A stretch of DNA of 37,395 bases from Rodentibacter trehalosifermentans (GTDB taxonomy: Bacteria; Pseudomonadota; Gammaproteobacteria; Enterobacterales; Pasteurellaceae): the NCBI RefSeq assembly GCF_002000545.1, contig NZ_MLHL01000057.1, positions 1-37,395 of the forward strand. The letters are read 5' to 3'. The notes beneath the pieces were generated by a model, which made no database searches, was not told where the DNA came from, and saw only the letters and a program-made list of their open reading frames with translations. The translations under genes and the position numbers were made by a program. Positions 15,643 to 26,541 of the stretch are shown in pieces (position 1 is the stretch's first letter; every line of letters starts with the position of its first letter).

Positions 15643-15716
15643 AAATAAAATTTGGCGAAAAATAACCGCACTTTTGCTTGTTTTTTCTTCGAGAGCAGTA
15701 TAGACTCTCATCAAAT

Positions 15717-15790
15717 TTAGTCGGGGTGCCATATGTGGCTGAGATGATACCCGTGAACCTGAAACAGTTAGCACTGACGTAGGAAACTAA
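15717..15790 (+). ncRNA. TPP (THI-box) riboswitch controlling the thiamin salvage operon
   Basis: The conserved blocks are present in order: CGGGGTGCC (15722-15730), GGCTGAGA at 15737-15744, ATACCCGTGAACCTGA at 15747-15762, and ACGTAGGAAACTA at 15777-15789. TTAGT (15717-15721) pairs with ACTAA (15786-15790) to close P1. Thiamin pyrophosphate binding should reduce expression of thiZ and the genes behind it. No clear intrinsic terminator follows, so control is more likely at translation initiation. A TATAGA at 15699-15704 may be the -10 of the promoter. Confidence 0.92.
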
Positions 15791-15852
15791 TATGACCATA
15801 TTCCCTTTCATTTCTCATTTCATTTTTTATTTTTCATTTTTACCTATTAAAG

Positions 15853-26000: not shown

Positions 26001-26029
26001 TTGCTTTGATGAAACGAATCTTCTATAAT
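26001..26029 (+). promoter_or_regulatory. rplY promoter
   Basis: TTGCTT (26001-26006) and a perfect TATAAT (26024-26029) are 17 bp apart. The start of transcription would be at about 26035, where the first leader hairpin begins. Confidence 0.75.
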
Positions 26030-26034
26030 TCGCA

Positions 26035-26090
26035 CGTCTCTCAGAGAGGCGTTATGAGGAAAATTGCTGGGTCGCCTGCAATTTTTTGTT
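26035..26090 (+). promoter_or_regulatory. Structured rplY leader with a terminator-like hairpin (candidate L25 autoregulatory RNA)
   Basis: Hairpin I pairs CGTCTCT (26035-26041) with AGAGGCG (26045-26051). Hairpin II pairs AAAATTGC (26060-26067) with GCAATTTT (26078-26085), with an inner GG/CC pair capped by GTCG, and runs into a T-rich stretch (TTGTTTTTTT). It looks like an intrinsic terminator placed 36 nt before the rplY start codon. Leader control of rplY by L25 is known in enteric bacteria; that this leader does the same is inferred. Confidence 0.55.
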
Positions 26091-26121
26091 TTTTTAATCT
26101 TATTTTAAAGAGAACACTAAA

Positions 26122-26409
26122 ATGGCATTTAAATTTAAAGCTGAAGTTCGTACAGCGCAAGGTACGGGTGCGAGCCGCCGTCTGCGTCATAACGGTCAAA
26201 TTCCTGCGATTGTTTATGGTGGTAACGAAGCACCGGTTTCAATTATCTTAAACCACGATGAATTAAACAACGCACAAGTTCACGATTCTTTCTACACTGA
26301 TGTGATCACTTTGGTTATTGATGGCAAAGAAGTGGCGGTAAAAGTGCAAGCAATGCAACGTCACCCATTCAAACCAAAATTGGTTCACATTGATTTCAAA
26401 AGAGCATAA
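26122..26409 (+). CDS. rplY: 50S ribosomal protein L25
   Basis: A 95-residue 5S-rRNA-binding ribosomal protein of the short, single-domain type found in the gamma-proteobacteria. Diagnostic stretches are [48 protein letters not shown] at the C-terminus. The ATG follows AAAGAGAAC. An overlapping frame beginning at 26006 lies in another phase and covers the leader; it is not real. The gene has its own promoter and leader and ends before a terminator. Confidence 0.96.
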
Positions 26410-26516: not shown

Positions 26517-26541
26517 AAGCCCGCTGTTTTAGCGGGCTTTT
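26517..26541 (+). terminator. Terminator after rplY
   Basis: AAGCCCGCT (26517-26525) pairs with AGCGGGCTT (26531-26539) around a GTTTT loop, followed by T residues. It lies about 107 bp after the rplY stop. Confidence 0.8.

Follow-up and report, generated by a model that had tools for sequence, protein, structure and literature searches.

Conserved GGUCGC hairpins before rplY: a probable L25 operator in a Rodentibacter-like species and candidate L25 sites across Gammaproteobacteria

The leader of rplY in the 37,395-nucleotide stretch of DNA analysed here (the window) is very probably an autogenous translational operator for ribosomal protein bL25, of the Rfam family RF03131. The window would thus hold a known regulatory RNA, the L25 operator, in a further, Rodentibacter-like species, and the second hairpin of the leader would not be a new attenuator. 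The most interesting outcome is the breadth of conserved rplY leaders, which, judged from their sequences, are candidate sites for L25.

The rplY leader of the window and its match to the L25 operator

Reading of the sequence confirmed the order promoter, hairpin, hairpin, T-tract and ribosome-binding site at the positions originally predicted (Table 1). The promoter had been called good, which holds in part: TTGCTT-17-TATAAT is present and TATAAT is the -10 hexamer in 65 of 82 distinct Pasteurellaceae leaders, but the -35 hexamer is identical to TTGACA at 3 of 6 positions and a consensus scan of the window listed neither this promoter nor hairpin II as a terminator. Likewise, the hairpin described as a 7-bp stem at the predicted start is found at 26035-26051, but its full extent is the 8 bp given in Table 1. 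The minimum-energy fold of positions 26035-26135 contains both hairpins (-22.8 kcal/mol, z -1.90) and 11 of 200 shuffles were equally stable; the folding energy by itself is therefore only mildly unusual, and it is conservation that makes the leader more than chance. A divergent gene encoding a VTT-domain protein lies upstream of rplY, and a terminator-like hairpin and a gene for a peptidase S49 lie downstream, so that rplY looks like a unit of its own. In a protein search of named genomes, the closest bL25 proteins were those of Avibacterium and Rodentibacter species, the nearest being mostly from Rodentibacter.

Table 1. Elements of the rplY region, in positions of the window.
Feature	Position	Strand	Sequence or structure	Basis or remark
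Promoter	26001-26029	+	TTGCTT 26001-26006, 17-nt spacer, TATAAT 26024-26029	sequence reading
Hairpin I	26034-26052	+	ACGTCTCT-CAG-AGAGGCGT, 8 bp, -8.8 kcal/mol	predicted mRNA 5' end
Hairpin II, putative L25 operator (RF03131)	26060-26085	+	AAAATTGC-T-GG-GTCG-CC-T-GCAATTTT	
T-tract	26082-26095	+	T6 26082-26087, G, T7 26089-26095	overlaps 3' arm of hairpin II
Weak Shine-Dalgarno GAGA	26110-26113	+		sequence; role after PMC10931766 (excerpt)
rplY, short bL25	26122-26409	+	95 aa, ATG at 26122	PF01386; NF004612 above cut-off
Terminator-like hairpin 3' of rplY	26517-26539	+	T-rich tail after the hairpin	consensus scan

The comparison with Rfam leader families, proposed together with the original prediction, identified hairpin II as a member of RF03131, the L25-Gammaproteobacteria leader: the match covers model positions 1-26 of 26 and scores 35.0 bits, with a margin of 0.9 bits over the curated cut-off of 34.1. 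No other Rfam regulatory family reached its cut-off in the window rplY leader. The short bL25 gene follows directly downstream of the match, and the GAGA starts 25 nt after hairpin II. Together with the conserved stems described below, the family match and the short bL25 downstream bear out the claim that this is a regulatory leader of rplY. According to section 3.8 of the review PMC10931766, which cites Aseev, Bylinkina and Boni (RNA 2015), rplY is autogenously repressed in E. coli and those of its relatives whose bL25 is short, and the repression acts on translation. According to the same section, control needs an irregular hairpin ahead of the ribosome-binding site as well as a weak GAGA, both of them conserved; replacement of GAGA by a classic GGAGG abolishes autogenous control, and these features are confined to short bL25. 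PMC7247131 reports further homologues of the Enterobacteria L25 leader, which are aligned in its supplement.

The window leader shares with the E. coli operator of RF03131 the GGGUCGCC tip (the same hairpin tip precedes rplY in E. coli K-12), the U.U mismatch, the weak GAGA and the short bL25, as well as a 5' hairpin upstream of the operator. The two differ in that the window stem is A-U-rich, whereas that of E. coli is G-C-rich, and in that a T-tract follows the stem in the window but not in E. coli. The anatomy of the window leader, its family match, its conservation and its covariation are observed here; repression by L25, at translation and in competition with the ribosome, is described for E. 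coli and its relatives, and by analogy the same would hold in the window species, L25 being the likely ligand. Free bL25 that is not taken up by 5S rRNA would then bind hairpin II, the irregular hairpin with the GGGUCGCC tip, and keep the 30S subunit off the weak GAGA site, so that an excess of L25 would lower rplY translation. Protection of the messenger would be the most likely role of hairpin I, which sits at its predicted 5' end.

Mimicry of 5S rRNA by the window operator was considered and rejected: it shares no stretch longer than 4 nt with a 5S rRNA of the same genome. The 5S rRNA used was that of locus L384, none being detected by the script in L381 and L382. A separate observation concerns L380, a locus outside the class, where the 5S rRNA contains GGUCGCC; this was treated as chance.

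Conservation of the leader in Pasteurellaceae

Leaders of rplY were gathered through RF03131, through the protein in named genomes, through a search of the family, from genomes that RF03131 had missed and from E. coli K-12. The collection holds 168 loci, 117 of them distinct over the last 100 nt. The original prediction had called for an alignment of the leader across Pasteurellaceae with a test for covariation, and had named lack of conservation of the two stems as the finding that would speak against it. Both stems proved conserved: the operator is present in 82/82 distinct Pasteurellaceae leaders, in one of them (L105) as the variant GGATCGCC, and GAGA stands between operator and start in 81 of the 82. 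Two loci, L039 and L121, fall outside this set, being just below the identity cut, and both have GGTCGC. In 41 distinct operators, 323 of 328 stem cells are paired, while 500 arm swaps averaged 277.6 paired cells and never exceeded 291; the U.U mismatch is kept in 39 of the 41. These data demonstrate that the operator stem covaries in Pasteurellaceae.

For hairpin I, position is better conserved than sequence. In 77 of the 82 family leaders (46% of shuffled segments), a hairpin with an energy of at most -3 kcal/mol begins no more than 14 nt after the -10 hexamer; in 41 of these leaders the distance is 7 nt, and the sequence of the hairpin differs between genera. Such conservation of place would fit protection of the 5' end of the mRNA.

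RF03131 was rejected as a census of the leader. With strict filters, 27 of 61 relatives matched the model at E 0.001 and 15 passed the cut-off; however, all 12 of the same-family genomes that were missed carry a GGTCGC hairpin before rplY, so the search undercounts.

Transcription termination at the operator

The leader had originally been read, first of all, as having the layout of an attenuator. As the main reading this is not supported: hairpin II corresponds to the published translational operator, and conservation in relatives covers the GGGUCGCC tip, the U.U mismatch and GAGA but not the U-tract, which is absent from E. coli and from most of the relatives examined. The accompanying remark was that L25 controls its own mRNA in enteric bacteria, mainly at translation, and that a transcriptional form here would be a different or a coupled mechanism; its first half fits the putative translational operator, and attenuation is left as a minor possibility.

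The T-tract, the sole element of the leader that resembles a terminator, is superfluous for a translational operator. It is enriched in the genus of the window, where 11 of 14 leaders have a run of at least 5 T in the 12 nt that follow the operator, as against 2.6% of the 12-nt stretches further along these leaders and 0/14 before the operator; these 14 leaders come from one genus and are not independent. Over the family the run is found in 24 of 81 leaders (2/81 before the operator and 6.0% of the 12-nt stretches farther downstream in them; L105, the variant, was left out), and it is absent from the other 57 as it is from E. coli; among other short-bL25 leaders it occurs in 2 of 18. A U-rich stretch ahead of a weak ribosome-binding site may instead be of use to the ribosome. 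It is conceivable, if unlikely, that in the genus of the window, where an A/U-rich operator stem has U-tracts after it, the operator acts as a terminator too, binding of L25 stabilising a weak intrinsic terminator and reducing transcription into rplY, so that attenuation is coupled to translational repression. A terminator score gives 5.6 for 26060-26085 and 23.9 for the core stem (19.6 for the hairpin after rplY), but -8.8 with the longest stem, and the consensus scan, as noted above, did not list hairpin II as a terminator. A coupled termination effect is thinkable in view of E. coli Term-seq data: according to PMC7815308, 3' ends lie in the 5' UTRs of ribosomal-protein operons for which translational control alone was known. 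Attenuation at rplY itself was not reported in the open-licence literature found, including the excerpted parts of PMC8297930, PMC7815308 and PMC2965389.

A classical attenuator, with hairpin I or some competing fold as the antiterminator of hairpin II, is highly improbable in spite of the order of promoter, hairpin, hairpin with T-tract and ribosome-binding site, because the two hairpins have no bases in common and coexist in the minimum-energy and centroid folds of the leader, neither of which contains a competing antiterminator, because conservation falls on the operator tip and GAGA and on no switching region, and because RF03131 is the sole Rfam regulatory family at cut-off there. The B. 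subtilis rplJL attenuator (PMC4538822) is like the window leader by analogy, a ribosomal protein acting on its own leader; the window leader differs from it, no conserved U-tract having been found in it and no antiterminator in its minimum-energy and centroid folds.

A U-tract acting as a terminator throughout the class was also considered. A first look had shown more T after the class hairpins (described below) than A before them, with runs of at least 5 in 12/103 versus 0, and the terminator score was above 0 in 26 of these 103 hairpins (of 105, two without an enclosing stem in the fold being left out). This candidate was dropped for long-bL25 leaders, because in these T-runs of at least 5 show no excess behind the hairpin (16/117) over those in front of it (23/117).

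In six loci of the collection (L024, L025, L026, L033, L035 and L039), the stretch from the L25 operator to the ribosome-binding site contains an extra small hairpin with a T-run after it. This extra hairpin of Pasteurellaceae leaders looks more terminator-like than hairpin II of the window.

GGUCGC hairpins before long and short bL25 genes

Hairpins with the GGUCGC loop of the window's putative operator occur well beyond its family. In a first set of long bL25 genes (198-222 aa), a GGTCGC hairpin precedes the gene in 14/14 cases, among them metagenome-assembled genomes (MAGs) of Oxalobacter sp. (L136), Burkholderiaceae (L137) and Cardiobacteriaceae (L134). The long bL25 of L137, the one long protein scanned whole, has an L25 domain and a TL5 C-terminal domain. 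This protein served as query against 151 genomes, each of a different listed family, from the class (Gammaproteobacteria defined broadly enough to take in Betaproteobacteria), and 144 matched; after leaving out the genome of the window and G187, in which the match began at residue 52, 142 leaders were surveyed (loci L169-L198 and L199-L309). GGTCGC lies within 220 nt of the rplY start in 105 of the 142 and within 110 nt in 104 (mean of dinucleotide shuffles, 5.8), and is absent from 37. In 104 of the 105 it stands 30-92 nt before the start, the remaining one (L180) having it at 136 nt. Overlapping frames of the motif aside, each permutation of its letters is found in at most 10 of the 142 leaders. 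In a later draw from the class, four of whose genomes were already in the first draw and two others of which belong to one genus, GGTCGC was present in 16 of 16 leaders.

The 104 hairpins, L180 being left out for its distance, were aligned without gaps. In this alignment (i) 82.3% of the cells are paired, compared to 59.2% in shuffles and at most 53.9% in slid alignments, and (ii) 302 cells are changed on both sides, compared to 112 in shuffles and at most 181 in slid alignments. The number of position pairs with a two-sided change is 8, the same as in shuffles, and the number of pair types was equalled by 23 of 500 shuffles. Support for covariation thus lies in how many cells pair, in how many change on both sides and in the covariation score, the counts of changed pairs and of pair types being neutral. 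Rfam searches at cut-offs of 20 loci, 14 of them with a long bL25, returned tRNAs alone and no leader family.

The class hairpin and the window operator have in common the invariant GGUCGC, a covarying hairpin and the place before rplY. They differ at the closing pair: of the 104 class hairpins, 79 have U.G there and 16 have U-A (95 together), whereas the window operator has a G-C pair and a U.U mismatch; they differ also in that the class hairpin mostly precedes a long two-domain bL25, in Betaproteobacteria too and often with prs upstream, whereas that of the window precedes a short one. The stop of a prs-like gene upstream of rplY was recognised in 97 of the 142 leaders, 76 with the motif (L204, one of these, is doubtful) and 21 without, and the median gap from prs to rplY is 104 nt in the former and 56 nt in the latter. 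The loop is independent of the length of the protein, since Ferrimonas, Aliivibrio and an Aeromonadaceae MAG, all with a short bL25, carry the plain GGTCGC hairpin, in which the enteric tip is absent.

A covariance model of the GGUCGC hairpin (R1) was rejected as unspecific for searching whole genomes: among the matches listed, with at most 150 candidates scored per genome, its best match was at rplY in 5 of 22 genomes outside the training set. The class hairpin is significant by its place and its conservation, not as a stand-alone search match.

As far as a hairpin can, the same loop before long bL25 genes would contradict the restriction of the control features to short bL25 stated in the excerpt of PMC10931766. 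Taken together, these results make it probable that the L25 leader has a longer history and a broader distribution than has been described: a GGUCGC hairpin would precede long and short bL25 genes in most of the sampled families of the class, often between prs and rplY, the operator of enteric bacteria and Pasteurellaceae would be a specialised descendant of it, two other hairpins would take its place outside the class, and autoregulation by L25 would be general in the phylum. The same loop and the strong covariation before long bL25 suggest an old autoregulatory circuit for a protein that binds 5S rRNA; if true, this circuit is open to test in many laboratory species.

Leaders outside the class

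Outside the class, the leaders of 52 of 68 genomes were read, which we take to be Alphaproteobacteria and members of another class. GGTCGC lies within 110 nt of rplY in 3 of these 52. Two other elements were found, one or the other being present in 40 leaders. The first, A(C/T)CC(C/T)TGGAGG, occurs in 28 of the 52 (0.0 in shuffles) and is flanked by short complementary arms in a hairpin-like manner, for example in L332, L343, L352, L353, L366 and L375. Its arms have 85 of 112 cells paired, whereas 1000 swaps gave a mean of 68.2 and at most 80, which indicates a modest covariation. The second, ACGGG-N3-ACCCG, is located 36-65 nt before rplY in 12 of the 52 leaders (L326, L327, L330, L331, L333-L337, L344, L351 and L377). 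Rfam searches at cut-offs of 20 loci, 17 of them from outside the class, yielded no leader family, the matches being tRNAs and one RtT RNA that lies apart from the leader; in 9 loci scanned permissively a single match arose, taken as chance. These elements raise the question of how one protein, L25, would be served by several different-looking hairpins.

Additional observations

Two records of the leader collection call for a remark. L089 (CABDVE010000001.1) carries the title Pseudomonas stutzeri NCTC11607; its bL25 is short, its leader is identical over 100 nt to those of two genomes of the window's genus, and the record is probably mislabelled. L066 and L069 (both in LVZA01000001.1) are two rplY loci that share one leader and lie close to opposite ends of the contig, probably the untrimmed overlap of a circular assembly. 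Elsewhere in the window, a TPP riboswitch (RF00059, 65.1 bits) is located at 15712-15802 on the + strand.
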